A DNA stretch of 64,000 bases from Massospora cicadina. Its lineage: Eukaryota > Entomophthoromycota > Entomophthoromycetes > Entomophthorales > Entomophthoraceae. Made by a program: the position numbers and the translations under genes. How positions within the stretch are numbered: the stretch's first letter is position 1; the number at the start of each line of letters is the position of its first letter. The stretch covers positions 124,001 to 188,000 of the forward strand of contig JAKSZP010002695.1 of assembly GCA_022478985.1 (NCBI GenBank). Direction: 5' to 3'. The notes beneath the pieces were generated by a model, which saw nothing but the letters and a program-made list of their open reading frames with translations, made no database searches and was not told where the DNA came from. Below are positions 223 to 51,390 of the stretch, one piece after another.

Positions 223-270
223 GATGCATGGCAGTTACCCTTTTATTTGACACCACTAGTGCTAAAAAAG
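223..270 (+). mobile_element. mini-retroposon copy 1 (48 bp, full-length form)
   Basis: A 48-bp insertion lies between perfect 12-bp direct repeats AACGCACATGCA (211-222 and 271-282). It starts GATGCATGG and ends CACCACTAGTGCTAAAAAAG. Long target duplications plus a 3' A-run are the signature of LINE-type target-primed reverse transcription. It has no terminal inverted repeats and no coding capacity. It shares start and tail with copies 5-8 and 10, so I treat about 48 nt as full length. Confidence 0.85.
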
Positions 271-299
271 AACGCACATGCAAGAAACCTGTGCAGTTG

Positions 300-1335
300 A
301 ACTAAGGAGCTGAAGCGAGCTACTATCTAAAAGGAGGAAACATATCATGAAGATTTAACAATTGATGATCAATTGAGCTACTACCAGTTCCTAGGTTTAA
401 CACCACCTATCTCTTGCACTATGATAGAAAGTTTCCCAAAATTAAATCACTTTTTAAGTATTAATTCATACATATACTGATTGATAAAATTCAGTTTTTG
501 ATTTTTCTCATAAGACCCAAAATAATGGGTCATTAAGTCAAAAATGGTAAGTGAAATTGTTAGGCCAAAAATCCCCATTTTACTTATAGTTATAATAAAA
601 TTTGTAAATTAGTCAGATTAGTTATAAAATCAAAATTTGGATAAACTTAGGCGCAAATCCTAAATTTCAAGTTTTATATGTGTTATAATTTTGGACAGTA
701 TCACTAGATCCGTCAGCTATTCACACAGGTTGAGCCCTCTGAGCAACAGACGGACAATTTGGGGATTGTCAGTCCTTTGGACGCACTTGAAAATAGATTA
801 AAATAGGAGCAATTGCCCCAACCGGTTCTTTTATTTATTTTTATAAATACAGTGTCTTTTGCTGTCCCATCTCATCTGCCTAAAAAAACCTCCCTCTCTC
901 AATCACCCATTTTGCTTAAATACATCAGCTTCTGGCGATACTATTTCTCATTGTTTGGGTTATTTTTTTAGTACTAGATGGTCCCAACCCATTGCTTGGG
1001 TTATTCTATTCCAACAATTTTACTCAAATTTGGCTTGTTATTCTTAATCCGCTGCCGCCCTATTTGTAGGTGATTTTACTTTGTATTTGTCAAAAATCAA
1101 CATCACCTTATCGCCTTATCACCTTATATAGAGGTGATCTAATAAACTCATTATATCTAATAAGACCTGTTGTATCCCAATATCGCCTCATCTCAAGGCA
1201 ATCAAATATTTGTAACTGATACTGTGTTCAGCAGATTCTACCCAGCTGTCCCAAGACTATCATCCAGTCATATCAAAATTGTGACAATATGTATGATTAA
1301 TCTTGCAGTTAATCCAGTCAATTATTAAAATTTAT
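300..1335 (+). repeat. degenerate copia-type LTR, copy 1 (approximate ends)
   Basis: Blocks at about 420-690 and 1,295-1,335 align, in order, with 3,830-4,545 and 4,550-4,590. Examples are the ACTATGATAGAAAG/ACTATGATAGCAG block and the shared AATCCAGTCAAT. Copy 2 is followed by a primer binding site, so both are read as LTRs. This copy lacks the tandem SINE pair and the mini-retroposon found in copy 2, and therefore keeps empty sites for them. It carries about 580 bp (about 700-1,290) missing from copy 2. Outer ends are uncertain. Confidence 0.55.
965..990 (-). mobile_element. mini-retroposon copy 2 (26 bp, 5'-truncated)
   Basis: Reverse-strand copy. The complement reads GGGTTGGGACCATC followed by TAGTACTAAAAA. 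It is flanked by 15-bp direct repeats ATTGTTTGGGTTATT (950-964) and ATTGCTTGGGTTATT (991-1005), which differ at one base. Only about 21 nt of element body remain, yet the target duplication is long, as expected of a 5'-truncated retrotransposed copy. Confidence 0.85.
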
Positions 1336-2244
1336 AATTTTATATGTTAGCTTTGAAGCTTTGATATATTAGTCCAGTATAAATAAATATTAATTATATG
1401 ATTAGTCCAGAAACTATATCAACACTTCCCTAGCTTTGACTAGAATATAAGTGAAGTACTTATCTTCTTTCTTTATAATATTTTAAAGCGCTAACTCAGT
1501 ACAAAATAGCTCGCCTCTCTTAGCTGAAAAAATAACAAACACAAAAAAAATTTTGAGGCTTTAAAATTACAGTGTTAATTTAAAGCATTAAATCTTTCTT
1601 AAAAGGAGTTTGTAGCATATGATATATATCTTTTCTTTCTTTATTTTTATCTTATTTTTTTCTTGATTTAAATATATATATCTTGGTTTATATTTTATAT
1701 TTTTTTAAGTTGCATTATTTACTCACTAATAAAAAAAATATAGTCTAAAGAAAAGAGAGCGATTGGCAAAGTAGTTATGATACTTAAAAATCTTATTATT
1801 TATGGGCATTGCTATGTTAACACCCTTTAAACTTAATGTATCGTTTTTTTAACTTTGTCCCTCTGCCATCATATCTTAATAGTACGAGGTTAATTTTAAT
1901 CAGCGGTTTTTTGTTCCCTTTAGGATCATGTGCCTGCCACTAAAAGCAATTCACCTCATAAACATCATCCAAAACTATATGATGAATGAATAACAAGGCA
2001 ACGTTGCCTGAGTTTCATTTTATCTAGTGGGATTGTTGCTTCTGGCACAATAGATTATCCTTCTTCTAATTTGCATACTTTTTACCTCATTTAGAGAATC
2101 AGCTTATAGTACTACATTAATATTCCGCTGGTGAAATTTTTGAAGCATACTTTCCTTTATGATTACAACTGTAGCAAGTGAAATCAACCTTTGAGCGCTT
2201 TGCCTTTGTAACATCAGTTTGTTGACTTTTCATATAGTTATTGA
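1336..2244. other. AT-rich spacer, nothing recognised
   Basis: This stretch is very AT-rich with homopolymer runs. I found no motif, repeat partner or coding frame I could support. Confidence 0.3.
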
Positions 2245-2783
2245 TTAAATTTGTTTTTTAATTTTGAATTGATTAAAAAAATTTAACTTAAACTTGGCTC
2301 CAGTGTTAGGCAGTCCAAAAGTTAGAGAGTATAGTTGTAAGTAATTGACCAACTCATATGATGTGAGGTTCTGTACAAATGCTAATAATATGGTATTCAT
2401 CAGGTTTTGATAAGGTTGAACTGCATATTGCAATTTAATCTTAGCACTAAAATCAATCAACACCTTGGGCCTAGAAGAACCTGAGTTTTTTAGTAAATTG
2501 GCCAGCAAACTCAGTAACTTTCTATTATTTTTGAAACTATATACATAAACTAGCTTTTTAAGTTGCTTTTTTTCAGGGTTACCTAACATATAAAGAATAG
2601 CCTCTTTGCCTCATCAAAAGTAAGGTTGTCATCCAAATGCGGCATGACTAATTTAATGCTCCAATCATTCAAGCAGTTGATGATTATAGCTGCCTTATTC
2701 TGGTCACTAGAATCATAAATGACCATTTTAAATCTTTTGTTAATAGTGATCATGCTTTTATTATCAAATACGAGCAGATGCAA
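2245..2783 (-). pseudogene. possible retrotransposon gag (capsid) remnant
   Basis: Two overlapping minus-strand frames (2,583-2,783, then 2,245-2,589 in another frame) read as one broken protein. The joint contains NLTFDEAKRLFF and LGNPEKKQLKKL, followed by about 85 mostly helical residues. The pattern of an amphipathic helix, then 'F/LGxPExK', then a helical tail resembles the Retrotrans_gag capsid family. There is no start context, zinc knuckle or neighbouring pol, and the frame breaks at about 2,585. Family assignment is an inference. A fragment of an unrelated element remains possible. Confidence 0.35.
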
Positions 2784-4150: not shown

Positions 4151-4166
4151 CTCAGTTTACTTGTAA

Positions 4167-4436: not shown

Positions 4437-4472
4437 TCCCCCTTTTGGGCTGGGAACCACTAGTGCTAAAAG
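4437..4472 (+). mobile_element. mini-retroposon copy 3 (36 bp, 5'-truncated)
   Basis: The insertion starts TCCCCCTTTTGGG and ends GGGAACCACTAGTGCTAAAAG. It lies between GTGATTGATCAATTTA (4,421-4,436) and GTGAATAATCAATTTA (4,473-4,488), which match at 14 of 16 bases. LTR copy 1 has no such insertion at the equivalent place. Confidence 0.8.
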
Positions 4473-4605: not shown

Positions 4606-4609
4606 TATG

Positions 4610-6415: not shown

Positions 6416-7476
6416 TGTCAGGATTTTAACCAGATGAATCCTTTTTATAGTAGCCAAAATTAGGAGTTTCAGTTAGTTGGGCATAATTACTGGCTAATTG
6501 CCTAGTTCAAAACTATTTAATATTATATGTTAAATTGAGTTTAGGTTCGGTGGAAGCTAAGTTCGCTGCCAAAATGCCACCTGAAGATCATTGTGGGAGT
6601 TCTCAGCGGAAAGCTGATGAATATGTTATGAATCATATGAAATGGTTCCATCATCTAATTCAGAGCAACGGCAACTCATGCTGAGGATGCTTGAGATCCT
6701 ATTTATTTATATTTATATAAATTTACCAGCGACTTATGTGAGGATGGATTGACCTAATTTAATATTTGGTGATCAGATGAGCAGATCTGGAGGGAGTCGC
6801 TATGAAGTATGAATGAACAAGTTTCCAATCTGATAGAGTTTTGGCATCAAGAGGCTGATGAAAATTCCAGTAGTTAATTGGCCAAAGAGTACTTGGGCGC
6901 AGTAGCCCTGGAAGTAGTATAAATAGTCGTTCATTCCCTCCTAATAAACATCTCTCGTTTGCCCATCTTTCCTGTTTGTTTGAAGTAGCTTAGTGCAACT
7001 AGAGTGGGGAAGGTGTTATAGGAGATCCCCAATAGGCATGGGTGTTCACGCCTGGAGTGGCCAGCGCTACCAGCCCCATAACTCCTCCTTATGAGGAACT
7101 GGTGGAAATCTGGCTGGCTGGCTACCATAAGATGAGCTGCATAGCCACCAACCCTAGCGGGGTGCAGTGCGGGAGGTGCCATAGCCACCCAAGAAGGGGG
7201 ATGGACTCGCCGGGGCATGCCCAGATGGGTTGGTGAAGGGTCGTGAGGGTGGGGCAGCATGGAAGTGCCTGAGCCGCCCAAGAAGGGGCAGGACTTGCCA
7301 GGGCACATGCTGAGGATGCCTGGGGCTAAAGGTGAAGCTTTTGGTGGTTAGTTGGTGGGTTGGACGCAGGACTTGTAGGGGTTGGTATGCCAATGAAGCT
7401 GAAACAGAAAAGGGCCACCAGTCTTCATACTGATTGGCCTTGAAAACAAGCAGAGCCCAGGGTCGATTTTACTACA
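6416..7476 (+). repeat. 5' LTR of element A
   Basis: Starts TGTCAGGATTTTAACC and ends TTTTACTACA. Contains a TATA box and a polyadenylation signal (6,918-6,948). The part after about 6,990 is clearly GC-richer than the rest of the window. It holds an imperfect internal duplication: the blocks around 7,177-7,225 and 7,265-7,315 both contain AAGAAGGGG followed by GGACT. Confidence 0.92.
6918..6948 (+). promoter_or_regulatory. TATA box and AATAAA of element A LTR
   Basis: TATAAATA at 6,918-6,925 and AATAAA at 6,943-6,948. The same pair occurs in the 3' LTR at 8,197-8,204 and 8,222-8,227. The order suggests transcription starting shortly after the AATAAA, with a short U3/R boundary and a long U5 of about 500 bp. 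Confidence 0.7.
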
Positions 7477-7477
7477 A

Positions 7478-7495
7478 TGGTGCTCACTACAGGGG
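7478..7495 (+). promoter_or_regulatory. primer binding site of element A
   Basis: TGGTGCTCACTACAGGGG begins one base after the 5' LTR. Variants of this sequence occur at the same place in gypsy elements B, G, H, P and Q, so all probably use the same tRNA primer, whose 3' end would read AGTGAGCACCA. Confidence 0.8.
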
Positions 7496-7640
7496 GCTTC
7501 GCTGGTGGGCTGCTAGAGTAGTTGGAGGTTTTGTTATGGAGTGACAAAAGTCACTGGTCAAGACCAGTGCTCCTTCTTGAGGGCGCTGGGAGGTCTTGAA
7601 CCACCATAAGGGTGGGTCACACTGAAGGATACATCTGGAT

Positions 7641-7650
7641 AAGTGGAGGG
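7641..7650 (+). promoter_or_regulatory. polypurine tract of element A
   Basis: AAGTGGAGGG lies three bases upstream of the 3' LTR. It is the expected site for plus-strand priming, and similar G-runs precede the 3' LTRs of B, G, P and Q. Confidence 0.75.
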
Positions 7651-7653
7651 CAA

Positions 7654-8756
7654 TGTTGGGATTTTAACCAGATAAATCCTTCTGATAGTATCTGAATTAG
7701 GGGTTTCAGTTAGTAAGGCATAATTACCAGCTATTCGCCTAGTTTACAATTTAATGTTATATGTTTAATCAAGTATAGGTTCGGTGGAAGCTGCGTTTTC
7801 TGCCAAATTGACATCTGAAGATTATTGTGGGACTTTCTAGCGGAAAGCTGATGAATCTGATATGAATCATCTGAAATGGTTCCATCATCTAATTCAGAGC
7901 ACCAGTGACTCATGATGAGGATGCTCAAAATCCTATTTATTTATGAATTTATATACAATTGACTAGCGACTTATGCTGAGGATGGATTGACCTAATTTAA
8001 TATTTGGTGATCAGATGAGCAGATCTGGAGGGAGTCACTATGAAGTATGAATGGACAAGTTTCTCTGGACCATCTAGTATTAAAAAAAAAAAATGGACAA
8101 GTTTCTGATCTGATAGAGTTGTGGCATCAAGAGGCTGATGAGATTTCCAGTAGTTGATTGGCCAAAGAGTAGTTGGGTGCAGTAGCCAGAAAGGAGTATA
8201 AATAGTCGTTCATTCCCTCCTAATAAACATCTTTCATTTGCCCATCTTTCCTGTTTGTTTGAAGTAGCTTAGTGCAACTAGAGTGGGGAAGGTGGTATAG
8301 GAGATCCCCAATAGGAGAAGGTGATCACGCCTGGAATGGAAGGTGCTGCCATCTCCCATGCCTCCTCCTTATGAGGAACCAGCGGGAACCTGGCCAGCTG
8401 GCTACCAGCAGATGAGCTGCATAGCCACCAACCCTAGCAGGGTGCAGCGCGGGAGGTGCCATAGGTGCCCAAGAAGGGTGATGGACTCACTGGGGCATGC
8501 CCAGATGGGTTGGTGAAAGGTCATGAGGGTGGGGCAGCGTGGAAGTGCCTGTGCCGCTCAGGAAGGGGGCAGGACTTGTCGGGGCACACGCGAGGATGCC
8601 TGGGGCTAAAGGCGAAGCTGTTGGTGGTTAGTTGGTGGGTTGGACGCAGGACTTGTAGGGGTTGGTACGCCAATGAAGGTGAAACAGCAAAGGGCCACCA
8701 GTCTTCATACTGGTTGGCCTGGCACACTAGTGGAGCCCAGGGTCAATTTCGTGACA
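7654..8756 (+). repeat. 3' LTR of element A
   Basis: Starts TGTTGGGATTTTAACC and ends TTTCGTGACA. Carries mini-retroposon copy 4 at 8,065-8,091 plus one duplicated 15-bp target, which accounts for its extra 42 bp relative to the 5' LTR. Confidence 0.92.
8065..8091 (+). mobile_element. mini-retroposon copy 4 (27 bp) with sister empty site
   Basis: CTGGACCATCTAGTATT followed by an A-run, between identical 15-bp repeats AATGGACAAGTTTCT (8,050-8,064 and 8,092-8,106). The 5' LTR of the same element reads AATGAACAAGTTTCC once (6,812-6,826) with nothing inserted. This gives an internal pre-insertion control. The insertion therefore happened after element A integrated. Confidence 0.92.
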
Positions 8757-8761
8757 GTGGG

Positions 8762-11528: not shown

Positions 11529-12317
11529 CCTGTTTAGAAACAGATTGCTTCTCAGGCCCCTATAGAATATCTTAGTCAGTAGTTTGAAGGCCAGATACTC
11601 CTTCCTCAGACAACCAACTCTTGTTGCTGGCCAAAATCTGCACATATTGAACCATTTATAATTATCAAATGTGTCAATTAGAGCTTTTCAAACCTTTTGC
11701 AACTACACTGATCTCAATTTTTGAAAAATTTATCCTTAATCTGATCTTTATTGCTGTTTCTGCTCTGATAAGGGCTTTCTGATTTATAAAACGTATTAGC
11801 TTGCTATTGAAACGGCCACTGCCCCCACCAACACACTAAATTGCCAGTCATTCCACAAGACCATGGAGTCTCTTATTGTGAGAGTCCATTCCTGATATCA
11901 CAGCTGACGTCTTTGAGGAATCCTAAGATGAGATTAAGGAGCTTCAATTTCTGTGTGACGCTCATGCACTGATACCACCAACAATTGGCGAATTTTCATC
12001 CCCAATTACCCTAAACTAAATAAGCTATCAATTTTCATGTGAATGTGAATTCACCATATATACCAATTTCCAGCTTGCTCATATGTTGAGGAAATGCACA
12101 CTGTATGCCTCATAGATAAATACAGAATTAAGCTCTTAAACCTTCTTTTATAATCCGCTGACTCCCCCACTCCCATTTTGTTTCTCTTACATATGCCTTC
12201 AGGTCCATGGCGGACAGATTCACTACAACCCCCCATCTGATGCCCTTCGGGCTTGACGTCACTGCACTTACCATAGTTTTTTTAAGTTTATATGTCCCCT
12301 CTGCAAAAAAACGTGTG

Positions 12318-12359
12318 GATGCATCCCTCTCAGATTGGGCCCCACTAGTACTAGAAAAA
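12318..12359 (+). mobile_element. mini-retroposon copy 5 (about 42 bp)
   Basis: Starts GATGCATCCC and ends GGGCCCCACTAGTACTAGAAAAA, aligning over its whole length with copies 1 and 6. No convincing target duplication remains, so the copy is probably old. It lies in the 3' region of LINE4. Confidence 0.6.
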
Positions 12360-13625
12360 TACATTGACGGTAACTCCTTTTCAGTCTATAAGAAAGGCTT
12401 GAGTTAGAAGTTGATATTGCACTATACTATTTTGTCATAGCTTCTATGTTTACATGTAGCTTTTAACAAATTATAGTGGTAAATAATTAGGAAAATTAAC
12501 AACAATATGATATTTAGATATATAGCAATTATTGATTACAATTTTTTCTAATTAATCAAATGAGGTACACTACCGAAAAACTTTATTTTTACATTTAGAT
12601 AATTTATATTTTAGCTTAATGTTATATTCACCAAGCTAACAACTCCACACAATCACATCATGAAAAACTAAGATTTTTAAGATCAACCTCTTAGAGGTAG
12701 TGTTAGGACCAAGAGGGCAAAATTATTTAACTAAAAACCCTTGCAGTTTCTGTGGAACCACCTGAGGCATAAGGCAACAAGGACTACAATGACTTTAAGC
12801 CCTATCTGACAAAGGTTCAATTGTTTTAGTGGGAGCATGTTAGCCGTAATTTACATCATGATACTTATAGTTGCTGAACAGAAAGGCAAAAAAATCTAAA
12901 TCTAAAGTTTAAATTTTTAATTATAATCAAGTGGAAAAGAAAATAGAACAAAATGGACCAGGACCATTACAAGAAAAGGGCAATGGCTTATAAGGGATAT
13001 GGGATTTGAGGGGGTTATCACACTGTTTGTGAGTGCTTCATCCTCTTCTTGGGCTTCAGATCTTTTCAATTTGTTCCTGGGAGGACAGGTTTAATACACA
13101 AAATGGAAGTGATTATTGTGGTTAATAATGGTGATGGGGCATGCCATGATTGACTGCTCCCCAATTAGGTTAAGAAACAATTTCAAAAAATTTTCAGATT
13201 GAGACGCACTCCACCCATGGCACCCCAGCATCTGATTGACAACAGGAAATAAAAAATGAGATATCATCGAAATAAAAAAGAAAGGGATATAATCAGAAAA
13301 AATCCCAAACTTGCCAGCGCATTAAGTCATTTACTTGTGTGCCAGCTCTCATCACTTTTGCTTTTCATCAACTTGCTCAATACGTTATGCAATGGATATC
13401 ATCGCCTCATAAACAAAAAAAAATGCAACTATGCCTCCTTATGCTGCATGCCGTGATGCTCTCACCCCAATGTTGTCTGCCATGGTCCACCAGCTAAAGC
13501 AGGCACCGGATAAATGTTCCTTAAGCTTCCACGCCTTCTGATATGGCTTCCTAGGCAGATAATTTAGGGACAATATTAGTATTTTTTTAATTTAAGATAA
13601 TCCCTTTTTTGAATCTACAAATAAA

Positions 13626-13674
13626 GATGCGTGGCAAATCCCCCTTTTGGGTTGAACACCACTAGTACTAAAAA
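13626..13674 (+). mobile_element. mini-retroposon copy 6 (49 bp, full-length form)
   Basis: Starts GATGCGTGGC, contains CCCCCTTTTGGGTTG and ends CACCACTAGTACTAAAAA. The flanks show only a degenerate possible duplication. It is the clearest 49-nt full-length match to copy 1. Confidence 0.7.
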
Positions 13675-13883
13675 CAGATTCTTCTGAAATGTAAACTCTT
13701 AAGCTTTGTAAAAGATTGTAATTTATAACATAATAATTAGGATAAAGTTAGAAAACTTTAAGGAAATATATTTCCAGATACTTTTTCCCATCTGATATGG
13801 CTTCCTGGGCTGATAGCTAAGGTATCATATTATATTCTTTTAAAGCTAATAAACACTTTTTTTAGCACATCACTTAAAGCTCC

Positions 13884-13928
13884 GATGATGACCCCTTTTT
13901 TAGGTTAGGCTCCACCAGTATTAAAAAG
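13884..13928 (+). mobile_element. mini-retroposon copy 7 (45 bp)
   Basis: Starts GATGATGACCCC and ends GCTCCACCAGTATTAAAAAG. Diverged but alignable with copies 1 and 6. No clear target duplication. Confidence 0.55.
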
Positions 13929-14779: not shown

Positions 14780-16120
14780 GGACCAGGGAGTCCAAGCTTT
14801 TGGTGAAAAGACCTTGCAGATTCTATAAAACCACTATAAAAACAAGAAACAATATTATGATGCTCTAAGGCCTTTATCTGACAGGGCACACCTGTTATAT
14901 TGGGTGCACATTGCCGCAGTGCACAACTTGATGCTTAAAGATGATTTTTAGACACACAGATAATTATCTGATATATGACTTTTAAAAACTAGAGAAAAGA
15001 AATTAGAACAAAATTGGTAATAACTCTCATAAGTGAGGACATTAATATTATAGGGGACTGGGAATTAGAGGGGCTACTGCGCTGTTCTTGTGGAGCTGCA
15101 TCCTAATCTTGAGTTGTAGGTTCTATGCAGTTCACAATTGGTTGAAAAAAGTTGGAATTTCAAAATTTTCATGTTAATTGAGGTTGGGAGTGGTGATGGG
15201 GCACGACATTATTGGCTGCTCTCTAACTAATCCAGTAAACATTGCAACAATTCACCTGATATAGATGCGCTCCACTCACAGCAACACTGATTTTGATTGT
15301 CAATAGGAAATTAAAAAAGGTGGATTTTGGAGAAATAAGATAAAAGGGAGAGCCAGAATCTGCAGAATCTTAAAATTAGCTTTTGTAGAAAAAGTAAAAT
15401 TTTACCAGAGAAATTGAAATTTAAAAAGGTTAGCAGAATCAGAAAATTAGGTTTTTGAAAAAGGGTTTTTTGAAAGAATGTCAAGGGTGTGTATTGGGAT
15501 TTGACCTATTTTCAGAAGGAAGGGCTTCAAAGTTCAATTTTTAAGACAACATAATGAAGTAATAAATATCAAATTTATTTATAAAATTAGAGTTTAAAAA
15601 TTTCTCTATTTAAATATAAACAAGTTTATTGATAGTACTAGGAAATATCATAGATAAAGGTTTATTTGATATCAAGCGTAATAAAATTAAAGATTATATA
15701 GATTATAATAAATCAGGATAGTCCAATTTATGAGACAATCTTACCTAATCCTACCGGTGGATAACTAGGATTTGTTACCTGAATTGTTAATTGATATTTC
15801 AAAGTAGTGATGGAATTTTTAATTTTTTCATATATTAATTTTATACCTAAAGTATATAGGTACAGTTATATATCATATACTAGATATTATAAAAGGAAAG
15901 TTGTTTTAACTACATGTAGATAAGAAACACAAATTGAGGCTTCACCCTTAATATGGAAATCTGACAGTGTGATAGAACTTACTAGAGTAGAATGTATCCT
16001 TTTGGCGATGTAACTGAGGGACTTCTCTTTATAAAAGCCTAATATATTCAACAATCACACAGTTAGGCATTGTGGCGATGGAGGCAATATTTCAAGAATA
16101 AATGTAGAAAGCATTGGAAA
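14780..16120. repeat. degenerate direct repeat C/D, second copy
   Basis: Partner of 12,660-14,120, with blocks C and D in the same order and orientation. Shorter than the first copy by roughly the length of the two mini-retroposons with their targets. Confidence 0.5.
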
Positions 16121-20822: not shown

Positions 20823-21567
20823 TGTTGATGACTGGTGTTGACCAAGCATTTAAAATCAACCCTAATACATCTTCACATAAGCCTTTCCAACCTATTGCCC
20901 GCCTTTATTAATTAAATTTTCTTCAATCCACCATAAGATATTTTGTAACACATTTACCTTAAAATTTACCATTCATTACCCACACGCCTTTGATTTATGT
21001 TCCATTCCATTTCCGCCCAGGTTAGAATATTTAGTATATATTTTTGCTCATTCCGCTGTAACTACCTCCAAATCACTGATATGATATATGCCAAAAAAAC
21101 AAGAAAGGTGTACCTGATTAATCAAATATTAAACTCACAATTTGCACACTCCATACGCTAGGTGTGGCTGTGAGCCTGTCAGTAGGCTAAAAGGGATATC
21201 ATATAATAACTTGACTCTCCAGAGAAGGACAACAAACTTAGCACCTTCTGGATGCCTGTGAATATATAGTAAAAAAGTGCATGGTGGAATAAAGAAACTA
21301 ATCGAGATAAAAAGGTCATGGAGCTATGAACTCTTGATACCCTAAGATTCCTGATGAAACTTGATTCTTTTTCCTATGAAGGATCTTCAGCAAAAATGAA
21401 AATACTAAATGATACTATTGCAAATCCAAAGACAATGGAAAAAAGTAATATATCTATATACAATATTTAAGCTCTCCTCAGAGGTTAACATCTTCATAAG
21501 CAGTACCTTATTATTGCATTATTTACCTGTTCTCTAGCTTCATTGTTATAACTCTTGTTGCAATATT
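20823..21567 (+). repeat. 5' LTR of element B
   Basis: Begins TGTTGATGACTGG and ends TTGTTGCAATATT, one base before the primer site. About 745 bp. Confidence 0.7.
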
Positions 21568-21589: not shown

Positions 21590-24500
21590 ATTGCTAACAC
21601 TATAAACTTGTATTAAAAATGAGCCAAAAAAAGCTGCTTCGCTTTAGCCTTTTTGGACATTTAAACATAAAGCCTATGGATCTGCAAGAGCCCAGTCAAT
21701 ATCATTTCCATCTTATAAGTCAGGTAATGAGGTGAATATACCCTTTCCTTGTGACTCTTTCTAATAAGAGCATTAGCTTCATATCCCTGTGACAGATGGC
21801 CAATGTACCCTATGATCACGTTGATGAAGTTGGGGTGTCTACTATTTTGGTACTGCATCTCTATTGACGCCATCAATAAGGATCAATTATGGATGTTTTA
21901 AACGTCGTAGAAACAAAGACTCTTTGTAGGCAAATTTTTACCTGCTTCACTAATGATAATGTCTGCCAGGAATAAAAAGATAACTGCAGAAAAAAATAGT
22001 TGAAATGATTCCCATTATATCCACACATCCATCAGACCATACGGATACTAGCTCAACACATCAAAATCATTGGATTGATTGGTTCCATGGAGGCGCAACA
22101 GTGTGACAACCACGTTTAGTAGATTCATTGGATGGTACCTTTTTAGAAGGTTCATGATGTTCTACACAATTAGCGCCATACCAACAAGGCCAATTAAAGA
22201 ATAGATAATATAATAAACGAGTTAAATGGCAATATTTTCCATATTATTGGGGAAGTTCTGATTATACCAAAGTCTCAACACAATGGGTAGCGGGTGTGAA
22301 CCACCAGTGTGCCCATGTTGAAACATACTGATAGTAGAGGGTGAGAAGCATATTACTGCAGAAGCTGCGAATCAGTAGTCCCATACCCAGACTAGAAGTT
22401 GGATTGACTAGGAAGGGGAGAGACTGAAAGTCATTTTACTCAACGCTTGAAAGTCTTAATTGATCATCACAACTAAATATAGATTACATAAAAGAGCTCA
22501 TACAATAGTCATCATAGGCTTGGCATTAAAGAAAACTACATGGACGAATCATTGCAACTTTCTAGTAGCTCATACCATAAATTTGGCTTGCAGAATAAAA
22601 TATTATGATCTCAAGGCCAGAAAAAAGCGGCTCTTACTGGAGAGAAGGCTGTATTGAAGGTCAGGCTCATCACAAGAAAAACATAAAAATAAGAGTTTGG
22701 GCAAACTGTGAAAAGTGAGTTTTACTGCCTCTCAAACATGTTGAACAGTTCCAGTACAAGATATAAGGGTATCCATAAATGTCATCAGGGCCATCCGCAA
22801 AAAGCTCAAAGTTAAATTCACTGATACATGCATATCTAGTCTAGCGTAATCATTTGTTAGATGACAAAGTGATAGGTAGCTGAATATCTCACTTTCTATT
22901 ACCTCACTATCTACTCCACATACCAATATCCAATAGACACAGATTGCTGTAAGAAACAAACAAACTTAAAAACTTCAACAGCTTTGGTAATGTGAAACAC
23001 CGCTGACCACGTAATACAGCCTGCCTGACTACCAGTCTGAACACGCATTAATTTCAGCCACATATTTAGCAACTTTAACCCATGTCAGGGCCGCAAGCCC
23101 TCTTTAAATTAAGTAAATACTTACAGTTACCATATTAATCCATTAATCTACTAAAAGTTTTTAGAAGAAGGGCATTGCCTATCTTCCCCCCCAACCACAC
23201 TCCCCCTTCTAATATAATTGCTTAGGCTCAACATGGAGGCATTATGTCGTAATTTTTTAATATGATAATCCCTTTGCTTAGAACATTGCAATGAAAGGTG
23301 CATAGACGCTCACTCATATTGGTTTGGACCCATTAGTACTTTAAAGGTAATATATATACCTTTCTGTTTCTAATTAAGATTGATATGGAAAAATCAATTG
23401 AGATGTGTATCTGGCAACACTTTATAAAATAGCAGACTTGGTCTGCAATAGCTGGTAATGCCTTAAATCTGAGAAGCTGGCCTAAAATACCAAGAGCTTA
23501 TTAGCTATTATGATTGAGGAGTTTGTAGGAGTTTACATGACGACTATAAGAAAGGCCAACTGACTCAAAATCTCTTTAAAAGGAAAAATATCCTGAGTTT
23601 TCAAACCACTTTTCCCTTGAGGCCCATCTGTTGTACAAGCTTAGTGTACTTAATAACTTTGACGCTCAAATTGTCTTATGCAACGCTTATGAGCCCAATA
23701 AGATGTTGTAACAAGTAATGTTACCTTTATTAAGCAAAGAACAAAGCGCTTCACAAACGGTGATCTACCTCAGCCATGTGGTGCCACTTTTAATGCACAT
23801 AGAAAATGGTATAATGAGAATTGTATCTACCTAAACAAGCATCCTTAGCATGAGGCCAACCAGACAAGCAAGTGCCTCTAGATTTAGGAAACCCAACGTG
23901 CGATATTATGTGCAACATAGGCTGCATTAAATAGCATTCTACCCGTTAAAGATATGACAAAGGGGCTAAGCCCAATTCCAGCATGTGGGAACAATGAGCA
24001 CTAAGGATTAGGTAAAAGTGTGGGTAGAGTAAGAAGGGAATATTATATCTCCACTGGAACCCAATCTATCCCCACTAAAGCACAAACCAGTCATCGTTTA
24101 ATCTCAAAACAGTACCAAGAAAACTTTGCCGCGTCACTAGCAACAAAACAGCCTGTGATTGCTGACAATGTATTAGCAGTAACCACTTGTTTACAAAAAG
24201 ACAGTAGCTTTAAAAAAGGTCATGGAGAAGGTATCAATAACATACATCCAGCATTTGGCAATACTACTAGTTTTTGCCTCCTATAAAATGCTAAAATTAG
24301 ATGTAGTCAACGTGGACTTCACTATAGGAGAGTTAAGAAGTCTAGCATAACTCTATGAAGAGCTCTCAATCTACCGGTGTCAGACTGACAAACTCAGTGT
24401 TTTTCTAATAGTTTATAAAGATGATTACTCTTCTGAGCGTACGTACATATATATTAACTTAAGCAGAAGATGATTAAGGCCAATTTAGACATTGGGCGCC

Positions 24501-27330: not shown

Positions 27331-29040
27331 ATTTTACTGAACAAGTCCATTGTGTGCATTGTAAAGATTACTGATATTGATTAAGTTAATATAAAGTTTA
27401 AAAAACTATCGTCCTAGTTCAGATCTTTACAACCATATTGAGTATTGTATCCAACGCTATACTGGTGCTATCTTTATTCTTTCCAATACATGACGTTACT
27501 TGATTTCTTTAGACAGCAAGAGGAATCTATCCCTTCTAAACTTACATCAGAGTTGGCACCTTCTATACTTAGGGAACTTTTCCCTTCCTCACAATGGAAC
27601 TTAACAATGGAACTTGACCAATTATCAGTAGGTTCAGAGGTTCCAAAGGAACTTCTCTCTTCTTCTACTAACGCAGAATCTATGAAGAACTTGGAAAGCA
27701 ACATTTAAAAAAGGCTAACTATCCTTTAACTATAATAAAGAGTAAAAAAACTATTGTATAACAGTCTAAGTATTTATGAGACTTTAAAACTGCTTTATTT
27801 AATATAAACCAAGGGATTATAAAAGGGAATTCTGGCGCCCGCATTGTTTTGCTGGAACTTAATAGGAATGGCAGCCATCGCCGATGGATTGGCCCTCTGG
27901 AGTTGTCCAAGATGAAGATTTTCCTCATTCGTTTAGTTGGATTTAGCCATCAACTAGAACACAACACCTTTTGGGTTTAGTTAAAGAACATGTCCCTATG
28001 CCTTCGCTCACCCCGCAGATTATCTTTACTAAGTTGGAAGTCGCTTTGGTGATAAACCTTTTACCCATTAACAGAAGTGGGTGTTACCAAATCTTTAAAT
28101 TGCAAGTTGCTACCAAAAGCGTTGTCAACGCCCAGCAATACCAATTAAACCTTAATTGATTGGTGTCAAACTTTGTTTGACTCATAAAAATAAAATTATA
28201 TCATCAATCGTTAAATTGATAATATACTATTTGTAAGAATGTTGGTGATCCTCCATGATGGAATCTAAGCAATATGGAAGAAAAACCCTGATGGATTAGT
28301 TAAGATCCCTTAAAGAACTATGACAAAATAGTTATTATATCATATGATAACTCTCACAACCGCTATTGCAATTCACCCAAGCAGATAAAGCAGATTTTAT
28401 TATAGATGATTAAGCTGAATTATTGTGGGCATGCTAAAAACCCACGTATGCAAATAATACCCTATTGGGAATCCTGAGGAAGTTGGTGTTGGAAAGGTTG
28501 TCAAATTGAAATCTTCTCTTTTCATCCACTAACTTTGTAAATAATTATTCATTTCAAACATAATGGGGTCACCATTCCAACTGTTGCATAGAAGAAAGCC
28601 GCTCTGCCCCCAAATTGTATTTTAGCATCCATAGAGAGAACATGAGCCACAATTAATATATAGATAATCTCAGACATATTTTATTTCAGCTCCAGACTGA
28701 CGCCTAATCCAATATTCTAGTACAGAAGATGAGATGCAGTAAGCGCGACAACCAGAAATAACACCAATCAGCCCAATTAAACTTGGAATGTGGATGCTCT
28801 ATTAAGTTAACCATGGTTCAGTATGGACTAAAAAACTAAAAAACTAAAAAGGTCATTTTTAGAATTTTTTTTAACGTCAATGGACAATTATACACTAATT
28901 CAACATCAAGGGTGTAAATTATTAGATGAGTACATGCCAAATTTCTGAAAAAATTCCAGCAGGGTATTGAGGATTTAATCCCAATAACTAGTAACATATT
29001 CGCTGCTCTTTAGCAGATTATTTTTTTTATGTTTGGTCAA
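27331..29040. other. interior of element B downstream of integrase core, unassigned
   Basis: Contains open stretches 27,445-27,708 (87 codons, acidic, Ser/Leu/Glu-rich) and 27,971-28,159 (62 codons) on the plus strand. They follow the integrase core and could be its C-terminal region or extra element sequence. No motif was recognised. Confidence 0.3.
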
Positions 29041-29048
29041 GTGAGGGG
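29041..29048 (+). promoter_or_regulatory. polypurine tract of element B
   Basis: GTGAGGGG directly before the right LTR, parallel to the G-rich tracts of A, P, G and Q. Confidence 0.6.
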
Positions 29049-29780
29049 CGTTGAAAAATTGTTGTTGGCCAAGCATGTGAATTTGAAACCTTATACATCT
29101 TCACATAGTCCCCACCACCCCACCCCACCTTTCAGTAATTTAGTTCTGTCAATTCACCATCACATATTTTGCTACTCATATGCCTTTAAATTCACCCAAT
29201 ATTATCCACGTGCTTTCAAATCCCATTTTATTCCCTTTTTCACCCAAGATAGCTTTTTAGTACTAATATAGCTCATCTCGCCATAATAGTCTACAAAGCT
29301 TTTTTGATAATTCTCTGCCTTACTTTTTAGTTTAAAGTACCCAATTGATATGATATTATACTCCTAATCTGTAATACACCATATTCATTAGATATGGCTG
29401 AGAGCCTTTAAGTAGGCTAAGCCGGTATAATTTTAGATTAATTGAATTTCAAGGAGAAGGCTGTCAAACAGAGCACCTACTAGATTATAAGACATATAGA
29501 AGAAAGTTGCACGGCGGAATAAGATGACTAAGTGTAATACTAAGGCCACAAAGCTACAAAACCTTAAGATCTTACAGTTCCTTCTTGAACTAGATTTATA
29601 TTAAAGCGGATCTTTAAAGTTAATAAAAGTACTAAATAATACTACTCCAATGTAAAGAGACATTAATTTATTGTGGCTCTATATCTTTATACATTCTTAA
29701 GTTACCCCTAAGGTATACTGTCTTGATACTGAAGTACCTTATTGGTTGACTACTTTTTCTGTAATTAAATTACCATTTTG
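29049..29780 (+). repeat. 3' LTR of element B (right end approximate)
   Basis: Begins CGTTGAAAAATTGTTG, a mutated TGTTG start. Alignable with 20,823-21,530 throughout. LINE5 reading resumes at about 29,781. Confidence 0.65.
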
Positions 29781-36500: not shown

Positions 36501-36679
36501 ATCTAAATTAAACCCTAAAACTGCAAGACCTGCACGAAATCAGCACAGGGTAAGGGATCGGACAATGACACAGATTGGACTGGCCCAGTGACATGGAGTA
36601 GACACCAAAATCTGGGCGCTGGGTTTGGGCTGGGCGGCCCTCCCAACCACCCCTCATCTGCGGGCACCTCAGTGTCAAT

Positions 36680-37400
36680 AGGGACCTTAATCATTGTTGG
36701 AGCCAGGGCTCAAGCGTCTCGAGCTAAAAAGCTGGACTTCCTGCAAAAACCCCCTGTAGATATCTTGGCCATCCAAGAAATCCACTATCTAGAAGGAGAA
36801 GAGGGATACTGATCAGCCAGGGTCTCACCATCCCTATCAGTATGGACGTCCCACTTTAGGGTGGTCATCTGCAATAACAAAAAACAAAACACTGACTCCT
36901 CATGATATCTGCACAGCTGCATCTTGATAGCAACAATCACATGCCAAGAGACACAATATTGATAGCATGCATCTATGCACGGTGCACTGCAGCTGAGAGG
37001 AACAGTTCCTTGATACTGTGCCAAAACTCACCCTCTCACCAGATACTATCATGTTGGGTGACTTCAACTGCTGGGTTAACCCAACATGAACTGATGGCCA
37101 AACCCTAGGGGATACCCCCAGGGCACATTGAATTCCGTGAAATGATGTCATCCCTTGGCATGCACAATACCCTCTTCGTTCACCACTCCTTCCCCAAATG
37201 ACCCGCCCCAACATATGTTTGGGAACGCTCATTTCAATGAGCTGCATTGACTTCATCCTTACCCCAAAAATCCACTGCTCGAACATCTCCAACTTCTCAA
37301 CAAAGAAGATCAATTTCTTTGACCACTGACTCATTTCAGTGAAGCTTTCGCCAACCCAAACTCCCACACAGGCGTTGACCTGAAGATGCTACGCCAGAAA
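36680..37400 (+). pseudogene. LINE1 ORF2 endonuclease domain
   Basis: AP-type endonuclease motifs in order: ARAQASRAKKLDFL then VDILAIQEIHYL (catalytic Glu in QEIH, about 36,755-36,790); MLGDFNC (37,051-37,071; Asp and Asn of 'GDFN' intact); SCIDFILTPKIH (about 37,240-37,275); and FFDH-x-LISVKL (about 37,315-37,350; terminal His present). Motifs fall in different frames, so indels have broken the gene while the catalytic residues survive. The domain nicks DNA at integration sites. Confidence 0.82.
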
Positions 37401-37799
37401 AACATAAAATTGCCCAAAATATCTGACTGGGTGAAACTTGAGGTTCCAAACCCAAGAATTAAAACCCCATTTGTATTGGACCCCATCAAAACATGGGCAA
37501 AGTTTAAAGCATACTAGCAATAACAATTGCCATCTCACCTTGCGTAAGTACACCGCCAATAAAGCTACACTTAGTTGCACCTTGGTGAAACTGGACCACC
37601 TCAAGCTCAACACCCCATATCCAGCTATAGCCCTAAAGGGGCCCAAATGGGCGGAAATATTCACCCGCCTAAACGCCCTCATCTTCAAACACCAGCACAG
37701 AATCAAAGTATTGAAAAAAGGTAAGTTCCTAAAATAAGGAAAAACCTGCTTGACATATTTCTTCTTCCAATTCCACTACCACGGCAACTAGCCCACGTG

Positions 37800-38860
37800 C
37801 ACACAGGTCCACAAAGATGACGGCTCATGGCAACTTACCCAGCGGAGGTATAGGCGGAACTACACTGCTACTACACCAAACTATACTTTGGCACCTCAAC
37901 TGACCCCCAGAAAATTAAATATTTTATACACACCGCCAGAATACAAAGTGCACCACTGTACTATAACCTCTCAAATCTAATCACACAGGAGGAGCTCTGG
38001 GACACAGTCAGCGGTGCACCACGTAGGAAATGCCCAGGACCTGATGGGATACCCAACGAATTCTAAAAAAATACTTCAAGCAAATCGCCCCACCCTCTTG
38101 TCATCAATGAACCAGTGCCTGCTGGAGACATGCCTTCTACCTGGTGGCCAGGACTCTTATGTCAAACCCTGTTTAAGAAGGGTGACAAACTAACCTGGCC
38201 AACTGGCGCCCAAAGCACTCTCTAACACAGATACAAAACTACTTACAAAAATTTTAGCCACTAGATTAAACACAATAGCCTCCAAAGTCCTGTCGCCAAT
38301 CAGTTTCAGTTCATAACAGGGCGTTCAATCTGGACCAATATGCACTCCGTCGCCAACATATGCCAGTCCAAATCAACTGGAGCCCTGGTATTCCTAGACC
38401 AGGAGAAGGCATATGATCGCGTTAGTTGGCTGTACCTAATGGAATGCCTAAACGCCTTCAATCTCCCACCCAGTTCATAAACAGGGCGATTCTCCTTACA
38501 TAGTCTGCATCCATGGCAGTATGTAGCTTTGGCTTCATAACTAACATGATCACACCACATTGAGGGCTCAAATAAGGGGACCCCCTCAGCCCACTGTAGT
38601 ATAGCTTCAGTATTGATTCACTCCTTCGCGTTGCTGACTCCCGCCTCATGGGCGTAACTGCATAAGGCCAACCAACAGTCAAGATAATAGCCTTTGCGGA
38701 TGACTGCATGACAGGTATAGCTATCAACAATGATGCCCAACAGCTGGAACGCACCCTAGAGGAATACTCTATGGCTAGCAACGCATCGCTCAACAATAGG
38801 AAAATAGAAATCATTCTCTTAGGCAAATACACTAACAACTGTGCCACAACACCCAAACCT
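37800..38860 (+). pseudogene. LINE1 ORF2 reverse transcriptase
   Basis: CPGPDGIP at 38,031-38,054; FLDQEKAYDRV at 38,391-38,423 (first catalytic Asp); FADD at 38,693-38,704 with both Asp intact; then a helical thumb with LERTLEEYSMASNASLN (about 38,747-38,797). Frameshifts separate the pieces (for example around 38,080, 38,210 and 38,480). The reverse transcriptase copies LINE, and possibly SINE, RNA at nicked DNA. The QEKAYDRV form is typical of L1/Tad-like LINEs of fungi and some other eukaryotes; that placement is my inference. Confidence 0.85.
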
Positions 38861-39699
38861 CACAGCCTCCACTAAGGAACAACCCACTTATCCTACCCTT
38901 TGCATCACCTCCTTCAACCAACCCTGTCCGCCACCTTGGGAGATGGCTGGAAACAGGGGGATATGCCAATGATACATTTGAGAACAATCTACTACAGTGG
39001 ATGTATAACCGCGTCGCCTCCCTTAAGGGAAGATCCCCAGAACTAAAGGGGCGAGTAACAGTTGCCAACTCACTCATCCTCTAGATGCTGTAGTTCCTCG
39101 CCCACGCAATCTCCTTCTCACCTAAATTCATATCCTCAATCCGCGCACTTATTTAGGGATGTCTGTGGCCTGAGTCCCAGCCCCCTGTACGGGTGGAAAC
39201 ACTCTTTGGCCCACGCTCCAGTGGAGGCATGGACCTAATAGACTTTAAGGTCCATGCCAACCGCATATTAGGAACTAATATAGAGGAAGTCCTAGCCTCA
39301 GACCTCCCACAATAACACTGGTCTAGAGCGGCGAGGTCCAACTTTGCACAGGCGCTCAAACTATCCAACTCACACAACCCACCCAGCCTGCTCTCATACC
39401 TTGCAAACCGCCCTAACGCATGAGCCCACATGAAACCCCCCTCACCTCAAATGCCTCCTCTGCACCATTTGGCACATAGATTAGACCGTCACTCTCACAG
39501 GCAATAGTCAGGGAAGAGGAAGACCTGAGCTCACTCGGCGCTAAGGAAACCAGAGGACCACCCTCAGAGGGACACACGCGATGTGGCCCTATTCATTGCA
39601 AGAATTGACTAACCGGATGCTTTAGACATCCCATACAATATCATAACACAGAAGGCAATATGGAGACTAACACATCATCCGCTCATCCAGCCAAGGGTA

Positions 39700-40150
39700 A
39701 GAGCTAACACCTGGTGTTGCCTCAGAAGAACCTACAGAACAGCAGATTGCTCCAACTCTCTTCATGCAGTGTGCGCAATGTGTGGAAAGGATGGCACCCT
39801 GCACCACTGCCTCAAAGCATGCCCCCATCTAGAGCCATATGGTGGGAAGCTTCGCGTCTGTTAAGAACCCAAAATGACCAGGATCTGTCAATCTCCAGAA
39901 GTCTCCTCACACTCCAACTTAAATCCCTGATACCACCTACACTTCATTCCCTGATAGTTGCCATTGCAATGTGGACAATCCACACCGTAGCACGGATGCC
40001 TACAAGGGTACCATGCCAACTATCCGTGTGACAATCAGCAGATTTCACCTACACCTACTGGAACAATTTCAAGCCTGGGTATATGTATACATGAGGCAGA
40101 AGCTAAAACAAATTGTTGAATCATGGTTCCCAGTCTGGTTTCTGCATATG
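39700..40150 (+). pseudogene. LINE1 ORF2 C-terminal zinc finger region
   Basis: CAMCGKDGTLHHCLKAC at 39,772-39,842 provides a C-x2-C...H-x4-C arrangement of the zinc-binding domain that follows many LINE reverse transcriptases. The preceding CCLRRTYRTAD and following acidic/helical stretch fit the same domain. It is followed by the 3' untranslated tail. Confidence 0.7.
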
Positions 40151-45030: not shown

Positions 45031-45031
45031 T

Positions 45032-45949: not shown

Positions 45950-46495
45950 TGCAAATTCCAGAAATTTACCATCCTAAACTCTGAAACCCACCACCAGCAC
46001 TATGGCTTTTGCAGATGGCATGGCTATTTCATTTTTATCTCTAAGAATGTCGCATTTGCTAACATGACCCTTTAGAGAAACACCAACACGGTCAACGCCA
46101 AGTTATACACCTTCAAGACAATGATATTAGAGTTCAGCTAAACATCTTACCATGCCATTTGGTCTGGAATCCTCATGTTCATTGCTTCAGGATCAAGTCC
46201 TTGTTGTCTTTATTTGAGACTCCTTGGTAATTTATGAGGATTAGGTATCATATGCTACCTAATCCTCATAAATTACCAAGGAGTCTCAAATAAAGACAAC
46301 AAGGACTTGATCCTGAAGCAATGAACTGTAGGATTGCAGATAAAATTGGAAGAACTTTACTGTTCAAGGGACGGGTATTGATGGCCAAAGTGTTCCTCAT
46401 CTCTAAAGTTGAGTTCTTTGAGCACATTTTTCCTCTAAAAAAATTTTATACGAGGCTCAATGTGATGCTTCGCTGTTGGATCTAGGGCTAAACCA
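45950..46495 (+). mobile_element. LINE5 fragment 3 (RT catalytic motif and thumb)
   Basis: Translated pieces continue the same LINE: TLKPTTSTMAFADGMAISF (45,979-46,035; FADD mutated to FADG), then KDNKDLIL, MNCRIADKIGRTLLFKGRVLMAK (46,321-46,389) and YTRLNVMLRCWI (about 46,449-46,485). Coding ends exactly where an LTR starts (TGTTGGG at 46,496). A large perfect palindrome lies inside this fragment. Confidence 0.7.
46177..46326. repeat. perfect palindrome, 71-bp arms, 8-bp loop
   Basis: 46,177-46,247 is the exact reverse complement of 46,256-46,326, around the loop TCATATGC. The right arm fits the LINE reading (...SNKDNKDLIL...), so the left arm looks like an inverted copy of it. Zero mismatches in otherwise decayed sequence imply a recent event or an artefact. 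Confidence 0.95.
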
Positions 46496-47357: not shown

Positions 47358-47358
47358 G

Positions 47359-47375: not shown

Positions 47376-49381
47376 ATCTGAGCCGTGTTTATCTTTAAAA
47401 AAACTTATATGTTTTAGTAGAGACTACAAAAAAGACTTAACGCCCAATTTGAGGAGGGGTAGCATAAGAATCTAAAAAGGTGAACCTGGATTACATTGGC
47501 TTGAAGGAAACCACGCTCACAATCTATGAGGTGCCATTTAATAATTCAGGGGTGAACTAAAGATTTGATTGTTTGAATAACGCAAGGGTTTTAGTTGTTA
47601 CCTATAACACTTTTGCCAAATCCCCAAACCTATTTTTTTACTTAAAATCATTAGCAATAATAAACAATTAATCAATATCCTCCAATGTCGCATTCTTCTT
47701 TACCAAGTTTCTTGCAGGATTTAAGATAACTCAAAAAAGAATTTACAATTATGTATAACAGAAACTTATAATATATGACCATTATAACCAGATAGCAGGA
47801 AACAATTACAGATCTGGTTTTGTATACTCCTGAAAAGAGCATTTTTTGCAATTTAATTGCTCAATTTAATACCAGTTTTATCTGATTTGTTCTTGATTAA
47901 ACTTAACAATGTGTGCTTCAAGCTAACAACATAATCCAGGGACTAGTCATAAACTAAAGACAAATAAGGCAGCAGTATAAAAGTATTTACTGATAGAAAA
48001 TGGCTACACACCATAATGGATACAAAATATGAATAATCTTTGGAAAAAAGCTGAAGGAAATATTGCAATTTATTCAATAATTAAGTGGTTGCTACGCTGT
48101 AAACTCCTGCACAAGACAAAAAAGCAGTACATACTCATTTAATAATAACAATGAGGTAAAGGACAATGCTATGAAATACAATTTTTACCAGTGACCTCTA
48201 TAGTATAAAGTTATTCAGGAAAATAAAGGAATTTTTCCAAATTAAAATACTAAAAACCAAATTTTGTTTCAATATTAATAAGATAGGAATAATTTTTGTC
48301 AGAAAAAATAATTTCAAAATATGTTACTATGACAAACAATGACTATAAACTTCTGAAAAGCGTGGTTAAATTATATCATTGTAGAACCTTTAGAAAAAAT
48401 TATGCCAAAAATTGTAAGCTTAGTATGGAATTGTAAAAATGCGCTAAAAATAAAAATATAGCAACTAATTGAAAATAATGATTGAAGAAAAAAATACAGT
48501 CTGCTATTTGAGTTAAGGAAAATAGATAACAATGTCAAGACTAAAGAAGGAGACTCTGAAATGTTTATAAACTGTTTCTCATCTAACAAAGTTAGCATAC
48601 TAGATAAAACCACAAAAGTATTCAAAAGGTCACAAATGCATTTAACGCCCTTCCAGAGTAAAGCTATTTATTGCCAAGTAGTTTTTCTAGTCAGATGAAA
48701 AATAGTGGCAAAGGTTTTTTTAAAAACTAGGGTTTAGTCAGCTTTAAACTGTCTGATTTTAAAAAAGAATAATGTTCTATACACCTTCTCAAAATGACCA
48801 TGGTGAGATGTGACAATCGTCAAAAGGCTGTTACCATACCTAATTGCCTAGATATAAGAAACCAAAATCTTACATACTTAGATTGGCAGCAAATGAGTGG
48901 ACTTACAGTGAGGCAAAGGATTCTATTATAAAGAAGTAGTAGTTCAGAGAATATTGTGAACCAGGTTTAAGAATCTAGAGATACTATTTTAGAAAATTAA
49001 AAACCACAAGTGTCTTTGCCAATAGATTCTATTAAGAATCTCAAATACCAACTTGAGCAGGAGTCTAAGATGATTTTTATGCACAGATTACAATAAATTT
49101 TGGTCTTCATTTCTATAGATATTTACATCTTGCTATAATATTAGCTTTCAATATGATTCAAAGACATCACAAGTGGTCAATTTTACAATTCTGCGAAACA
49201 TCTTTTGATACACTGATAAAGAGCTGCAAAAATATGAATAAATAAAAAATCTATTGTAAAAAAGCTGTGTTCATCACTAGAAATTTTATTAGACTACTAA
49301 AAAAACTTTTATAATAAGGATGCTAAAGTATAACTTGTATAAGTAATGCAAGGAAGGCCACAGATTAAATAATATAGAACA
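47376..49381. other. interior of element H, no recognisable protein
   Basis: AT-rich, with short plus-strand frames only. A fragment around 47,575-47,640 is open, but I could not match it to gag or pol. Confidence 0.3.
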
Positions 49382-49397
49382 AAAGGGCCAAAGGAAT
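49382..49397. repeat. target-site duplication of LINE3, left
   Basis: AAAGGGCCAAAGGAAT, matching AAAGGACCAAAGGATA at about 51,428-51,443 in 13 of 16 bases. Confidence 0.65.
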
Positions 49398-49491
49398 CCA
49401 AAAAAAAATTTCTGCTCAATTTCACTTTTAAGCGAATTTTATTATAAGTTTATTTTACAACCGCTATCTGGCCACACCAGTTTTCCTATTT

Positions 49492-49518
49492 CTTTTTTTA
49501 GTACTAGATGGTCCCAAA
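49492..49518 (-). mobile_element. mini-retroposon copy 9 (27 bp) with perfect 19-bp target duplication
   Basis: The complement reads TTTGGGACCATC then TAGTACTAAAAAAAG. Flanks CACACCAGTTTTCCTATTT at 49,473-49,491 and 49,519-49,537 are identical over 19 bp. This is the cleanest duplication in the family. It is inserted in the 5' part of LINE3. Confidence 0.92.
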
Positions 49519-49539
49519 CACACCAGTTTTCCTATTTAT

Positions 49540-51390
49540 GTCCGCAGATTCGCCCCCTGCTGCTCCAATTTGGGGTAGCGGCGCTCCAATACCTAGCATT
49601 TTCTGCCCTACGGGAAATTGCATTTGCATGGGGTCAAATAGCCTGCCAACTTCTTCCAGCCATTTTGTCCCCCCATGGGACTTAGCGGTCCACCTGGCAC
49701 ACATCCATTCCTCTTGCCCCTATCAGCTCCATCCCTCATTCCACAATCCAATTTTGCCTATTAGTTGAATACAGGCATTTATTCCCATATGCTGACAAGA
49801 CAATTTTCAAATTGGCCACTGCTGCATTTGCACTGGCTGGCTTTATTGATCTCCAACTGTTTAAATGCTACCTAATATTGGTTTCTAAACAATAAAGGAT
49901 GCTGCAGCAGCGGCTTCTACTCCCCTTATTTATAAAAATACTCCTATACCAAATTTTTAACTCGCCTCCCTACAGAAACCACAATGGTGGTGTCCTTTGC
50001 ATCCCTCCCTTCCCACCTCCCACCCCAAATTCTATATGATCAGTTGATGGAAGGGATCTAGCTTCTGGGACTCAGCCCTAACCTCATCTTCACTGTTCCC
50101 TCTGGTGCAGAGCGCCTTGCTGCCACTCGCGCTACTGCTAACATAATACCATACCACTCTGCCATAGCCTAACAATTCCCTTTTTTTAGCACTAGGTGGT
50201 CCCAACCTAAATGGGGGATACACTGATCTTATAGCCCAACAATTCCCCTCATTCTTATATTGCAGCAGCACCTGAGCTTTTTTGGGATCATGTGGCTAAT
50301 GGTCGCCAGATTTGTCCCGTCTGCTTTGGGTTTGAACATTCCAAAAAATCTAGACCCCATGACACTTCCTCTGATGCGGCTTCAGAGCCCTATTCAGCGG
50401 ATTCTGAATGGGGCGTTTTGTTGCCACCTCTCACTCAACATTTTTGTTTGATGGGCCAGAGTGGGAAATTGGCCCCACCAAATCAACTGCCCATATTAAC
50501 CCACCCAATTACACCCGCGCCAATCAGAGTCAGGCTTGGACTACCATCTGCACCCAGCATCCCATTTGACTATTTCCCACCCAAATTTGTCATCCACTAT
50601 TCTCATAAACCAAAATCCATGTGACCTATTGGCCAAGGTTGACTTATCTGGTAAAGTTATCATGAGTGAGGATTCTGGTGAACCTCTTGGCATGTTCAAT
50701 TATGGTCAGGCCGAATTTTTCCCTTCTGACTTTGACAAAACCTCATCCCCCAAACATTTCGCTCCTAAACCCAATGCCACCCTCTACCAAAGTGACCACC
50801 AGTTCGCCTTAGAAGGGTGTCTTCTCCCCATTGCCAAACCTATGCAAAGCAGTGGCCCAATCTGTGGATCAATTCAAACTAGGGCTGACCACATTCTACT
50901 ACCCCCCTGATTAACCCAAAGCACCCTGAAGCAAAATCAGTAAACTATCCGATAATGCTGAAGCTACTGTCATTCATGTTGCTAAACTAGCAGACTTTGA
51001 CACATCTTCTGAAAACACCCACCAAAGTTTATCCAATTTTGCCCAGCTCCCCAAAGCACCACATTCAAGCTGAACATCACTTAGCGGAATATGTTGAAGC
51101 TGTCTACCAAGCTGATCTTGATGATGAGGATGAAAACTCATTTTACACCACCATCCACCCACACTATGCTAATGCCACAACACCCTGGCTCTCCGCTTTA
51201 GTCTGTTTCTACAAGTATAATGATATTACCATGAGGAGTATGTATGCAGAAGAGCCGACTGACCCCCCCTCACCCTCTGCCATGGTGGGTTACCAGTTTC
51301 TGCTCCCCACCTGGTTGGAGATTTTTGTTTTTGTTTTATCGATCCATTCATTTGTTTGTTCAGTTCTTTTGCTCTTTGCTTATTGGTAAA
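49540..51390 (+). pseudogene. LINE3 ORF1 remnant
   Basis: Pieces: N-terminal Pro-rich part (49,508-49,768); TTMVVSFASLPSHLPPQILYDQ (about 49,978-50,042); a knuckle ICPVCFGFEHSKKS (50,310-50,351), in which the fourth Cys has become Ser (TCT at 50,349-50,351); acidic C-terminal part with DLDDEDENSF (about 51,117-51,146). One mini-retroposon (50,181-50,230) splits the region just before the knuckle. Confidence 0.7.
50181..50230 (-). mobile_element. mini-retroposon copy 10 (50 bp, full-length form)
   Basis: The complement starts AAGATCAGTGTATCCCCC and ends GGGACCACCTAGTGCTAAAAAAA. Flanks ATAGCCTAACAATTCCC (50,164-50,180) and ATAGCCCAACAATTCCC (50,231-50,247) differ at one of 17 bases. This is the longest copy with a secure duplication, and it marks the 5' end of the family independently of copy 1. 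Confidence 0.92.

Follow-up and report, generated by a model that had tools for sequence, protein, structure and literature searches.

SINEs are short, non-coding, A-tailed elements with target duplications and a common 3′ end. Among the very short ones is Platy-1, a 100-bp SINE of platyrrhine primates with more than 2200 full-length members (PMC10378772). Insertions of 5′-truncated LINEs keep the 3′ end and lose the 5′ end, and also carry an A-tail and a target duplication; truncated LINE copies are quoted at 100-1,000 bp (PMC3747384). A third related system is formed by retroposed pieces of truncated small RNAs, which lack an A-tail.

The family described here was studied through ten copies in one window, that is, the whole stretch of 64,000 nt that was analyzed. 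It shares with SINEs all the characters named above and, probably, the common 5′ edge of its long copies. It differs from them in that no tRNA, 5S or 7SL head was recognized, and in that its duplication-flanked insertions are all severely truncated. Like Platy-1 it is very short but, compared by description, it has no long copy with an intact duplication. Its duplication-flanked inserts are much shorter than the quoted truncated LINE copies and, unlike for truncated LINEs, no autonomous parent with the family tail lies within the window. With retroposed pieces of small RNAs it has in common the type of origin, whereas its copies do have an A-tail.

A tRNA search with ARAGORN in its bacterial setting returned no hit, and Rfam gave none at gathering scores and only E 0.56-4.2 in a permissive search, the copies being few and diverged; pol III promoter boxes were inspected by eye only. 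Exact scans of IMG/VR gave no match to either the tail or the head, and a scan of prokaryote genomes with the tail gave 3 matches, in bacteria of three genera, where about 7 are expected by chance (our own estimate). Word matches in open-licence papers on very short or severely truncated SINEs and on fungal SINEs named no 48-nt family.

Ten copies in two length classes

A first-pass annotation of this DNA had reported at least ten related copies with an A-run, in both orientations. The ten it listed are all present and exceed chance. The 20-mer quoted for the family matches, with at most 3 mismatches, four of the ten copies (0 expected in the window). A profile built from the ten recovers all of them at E 1.9e-12 to 1.1e-3, as it should by construction, and no eleventh copy better than E 0.16 was found in the window. 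With a 19-nt matrix derived from the same copies, these score 20.8-27.9 bits and the next site 15.2 bits, the highest score in 20 Markov-simulated windows being 18.0 bits.

All copies end at the A-run and they form two classes, long copies without a duplication (n = 4, one of them weakly supported), with a long form of ~141 nt, and short copies with a duplication (n = 6). Insert lengths of the six short copies include the A-run. The long copies are also named below by the start of their 48-nt segment (12318, 13626, 13884 and 23298).

223..270, + strand: short copy, 48-nt insert, 12-bp duplication (12/12) on each side; long-copy profile E 1.9e-4
965..990, - strand: short copy, 26-nt insert, duplication 15/16; long-copy profile E 0.062
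4437..4472, + strand: short copy, 36-nt insert, weaker duplication 14/16; long-copy profile E 7.2e-5
8065..8091, + strand: short copy, 27-nt insert, duplication 15/15; missed by the long-copy profile
49492..49518, - strand: short copy, 27-nt insert, duplication 19/19; long-copy profile E 0.62
50181..50230, - strand: short copy, 50-nt insert, duplication 16/17; long-copy profile E 5.4e-4
12231..12359, + strand: long copy, ~129 nt, with the weakest upstream support; left-out profile E 0.32
13534..13674, + strand: long copy, 141 nt; left-out profile E 4e-8
13788..13928, + strand: long copy, 141 nt; left-out profile E 2.7e-10
23205..23346, + strand: long copy, 142 nt; left-out profile E 5e-7

The ten locations annotated at first pass thus stand, but the copies at 12318, 13626, 13884 and 23298 had been drawn too short at their 5′ ends.

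Target duplications and insertion

Each of the six short copies is an insertion of 26-50 nt that carries an A-tail and is flanked by a target duplication. The 12-19-bp duplications announced for six copies were found in 6 of the 10, with scores of 10-19 when searched up to 80 nt upstream; the score of 10 belongs to 4437, whose duplication is the weakest of the six. Among 1117 control A-runs searched over the same distance, 6 reach a score of 10, 1 reaches 13 and none reaches 15; over 260 nt, the corresponding numbers are 22, 3 and 2, and 1 control reaches 19. At the 48-nt boundary of 12318, 13626, 13884 and 23298 no duplication was found (scores 4-7; control mean 5.5). Nor was there a clear one at the long boundaries of these copies, where the score of 13626, matched by 3.8% of random pairs, is doubtful and those of the other three are matched by 29-95%.

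Exact repeats of at least 12 nt beside A-rich ends occur at seven places. Three of these are family copies (223, 8065 and 49492), and only these three have, by eye, a clean A-run. A relaxed repeat scan, in which 223 fell outside the range and 4437 below the threshold, gave 11 rows, five of them (four copies) from the family and six from other sequences. Outside the retroposon family, an A-run at 15381 (- strand) shows a possible direct repeat of at least 18/23, 48 nt apart.

The insertion at 8065 sits in the second unit of a direct duplication of ~1.1 kb at 6421-8749 (units 6421-7469 and 7659-8749, 84.9% alike). Its target is uninterrupted in the other unit, which is direct evidence for insertion.

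6812..6826, + strand: empty site for the 8065 target, a single uninterrupted copy in the paralogous duplication unit

In four of the six short copies (223, 965, 8065 and 49492) the duplication starts with AA, which would fit annealing of the A-tail to T at the nick. A LINE enzyme working by target-primed reverse transcription gives A-tails, 12-19-bp duplications, insertion in either orientation and 5′ ends that vary (PMC2912911). Collectively, the A-tails, the six 12-19-bp duplications, the two orientations and the one empty site support the LINE-type target-primed reverse transcription proposed at first pass.

Extent of the parent sequence and its relation to LINEs

The full length of the family had been put at about 48 nt. 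Within the window, copies instead run upstream into a longer conserved element, strongly in three cases (13626, 13884 and 23298, by ~92-97 nt) and weakly in a fourth (12318), an outcome that the first-pass annotation had itself named as refuting its reading. This was obtained with left-out profiles that cover only 110 nt upstream of the 48-nt segment, three copies being used for training and the fourth for testing (E values listed above); the match of 12318, the best outside the training set, falls at the right place. In pairwise comparisons, the upstream parts of 13626, 13884 and 23298 reach scores with one another that just 0.1-0.23% of 3000 random segments attain, and that of 12318 is matched by 0.9-15% of them, varying with partner and direction. 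The stretches upstream of the six short copies show no excess similarity (smallest fraction 4% of random segments).

The alignment of 13534-13674 with 13788-13927 spans 142 nt and stops at the A-run, and 13626 aligns with 23298 from -92/-93 to the A-run. That of 13884 with 23298 shares this starting head and continues, as a weak extension, for 34-35 nt beyond the A-run; direct alignment of 12318 with 23298 starts only at -16, not at the head. The pair 12318 / 13884 is left out, its stretches having overlapped a neighboring copy. A common 5′ edge at -92 to -97 is shared by three of the four long copies. In the proposed parent, a head around TCTGATATGGCTTCCT would be followed by an AT-rich middle and by the 48-nt 3′ segment ending in TAGTACT and the A-run; the head is based on four copies (mean column identity 70%), of which one is weak. 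The upstream order in the long copies is a head around TCTGATATGG, a T-run followed by AA, and then the 48-nt segment; ATAATCCCTTT is present upstream of this segment in two long copies. A partner LINE would be expected to end in CTAGTACT and an A-run. Near two of the long copies lies a separate dispersed repeat (13107-13301 / 15169-15367, E 6.9e-18).

When the four long copies are made into a profile, it finds five of the six short ones, three at E < 1e-3 and two weakly, and all five matches end at model position 141 or 142; outside the family, the best E is 1.6 in the window, and the reversed window gives 2.1 at best. As five short copies match the 3′ end of this profile, the parent is, judging from these alignments, at least ~141 nt long and the short copies would be extreme 5′ truncations of it. 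That the family is an independent retroposon of ~48 nt, as first proposed, appears highly improbable: although 223 (48 nt) and 50181 (50 nt) start within 2 nt of each other when their starts are aligned to the long copies, three copies, and weakly a fourth, have conserved sequence ahead of the 48 nt, and the copies without the upstream part vary from 26 to 50 nt, with no single 5′ start. A parent of ~340 nt is possible, because a weak, collinear similarity between 12318 and 13626 lies further upstream (12031-12187 with 13329-13481, E 0.013), matched by 0.3-0.4% of random segments.

This further similarity, upstream of two of the long copies, speaks for the idea that all copies, long and short, are 5′-truncated ends of a several-kilobase LINE, the 141-nt copies being longer stubs. 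Truncation is usual for LINEs (PMC3747384). We nevertheless regard this origin as unlikely: three long copies have one 5′ edge, which random truncation would rarely give, and 13884 and 23298 show no similarity in the region further upstream. The window does contain a LINE in decay:

36519-40028, + strand: decayed LINE (~36.5-40.1 kb)
38265-38477, + strand: reverse transcriptase piece, above the Pfam cut-off
38666-38872, + strand: reverse transcriptase piece, below the Pfam cut-off
39613-39861, + strand: zf-RVT piece, below the Pfam cut-off

No copy of the family tail occurs in the kilobase after the end of this element, which argues against such an origin; for the same reason, the decayed LINE is at most a possible partner of the family. 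Its piece at 36519-36809 we take, by its look, to be endonuclease-like; a PDB search with this piece gave four unconvincing matches (E 0.11-0.86).

Other repeats in the window include an LTR retrotransposon at 54455-62179, whose LTRs (54455-55014 and 61617-62179) are 84.6% alike and whose reverse transcriptase, integrase zinc-binding and integrase core pieces lie in separate frames; we read it as Ty3-type by gene order. A protein search with its integrase piece gave 14 candidates, none of them at E 0.001 or better. A direct repeat of ~600 nt (20833-21423 / 29060-29650) is 65% alike, its overlapping pieces 20881-21081 and 29014-29268 having no Pfam match, and a near-palindrome of 190 nt (46157-46346) matches its own reverse complement at 92.6% identity. 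Over the window (1-64000), CpG observed/expected is 0.31, with TG at 1.18 and CA at 1.14; the CpG depletion suggests a CpG-methylated genome, and the long, decayed transposons point to a eukaryote.

We infer that the enzyme came from a LINE, that the parent was a SINE and that early stopping caused the shortness of the copies. The family is probably a non-autonomous, SINE-like one with a parent of at least ~141 nt, moved in trans by a LINE enzyme, and with short copies that are 5′ truncations. In this mechanism, the LINE enzyme would act on the family RNA, the target would be nicked and the A-tail would anneal to it. The RNA would then be reverse transcribed from its 3′ end, a target duplication of 12-19 bp would be left, and the ultra-short copies would arise where reverse transcription stopped 17-43 nt into the template. 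Against the reading as a truncated SINE stand the long copies without a clear duplication, the weak support of 12318, the failure of the long-copy profile to match 8065 and the weakness of two of its five matches, and the lack of a recognizable small-RNA or tRNA head. Folding of the RNA of the 3′ segment gave weak hairpins, which differ between copies, and a stem halting the enzyme was therefore set aside as an explanation.

Shortness of the duplication-flanked copies

For a SINE, the shortness of all six duplication-flanked insertions is odd. None exceeds 50 nt, with 17-43 nt ahead of the A-run; for Alu, 80.5% of human- and chimpanzee-specific insertions are full length (PMC2912911). Two explanations offer themselves, frequent early stopping of the enzyme on the template of this family or an active source RNA that is short from the outset. 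In the latter case, the young copies would derive from a separate, ultra-short RNA of about 26-50 nt, a 3′ derivative of the old element, and the 141-nt element would no longer be active. Duplications are present in 6/6 short and 0/4 long copies (1 in 210 by Fisher's test, done after seeing the data) and, with stops spread evenly over 15-135 nt, all six ends would fall within 45 nt with a probability of 2e-4. Moreover, the three shortest copies have CATCTAG as their variant, and their starts lie no more than 4 nt apart. All three observations favor a short source, which we nonetheless hold to be quite improbable, as the six 5′ ends differ (26, 27, 27, 36, 48 and 50 nt), neither a source locus nor a transcript is known, and the clustering of these ends is unremarkable within the last 45 nt. 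There, the observed clustering is reached in 54% of simulations, compared with 2.3% over 15-135 nt (the length of copy 223 was taken as 40, 41 on recount, with the clustering unaffected). Clustering of the 5′ ends therefore does not decide between early stopping and a short source RNA.

If the source is short, an RNA of ~20-40 nt plus an A-tail would suffice as a substrate for the host LINE machinery, and this retroposon substrate would be far smaller than usual SINEs. Should the extreme truncation prove to be genome-wide, the copies would document at what early points of a foreign template a LINE reverse transcriptase stops, and would show that inserts of 26-50 nt, below the size of usual repeat annotation, are products of retroposition. 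Otherwise, this is an ordinary SINE-like family, for which no match was found in the few sources reached.
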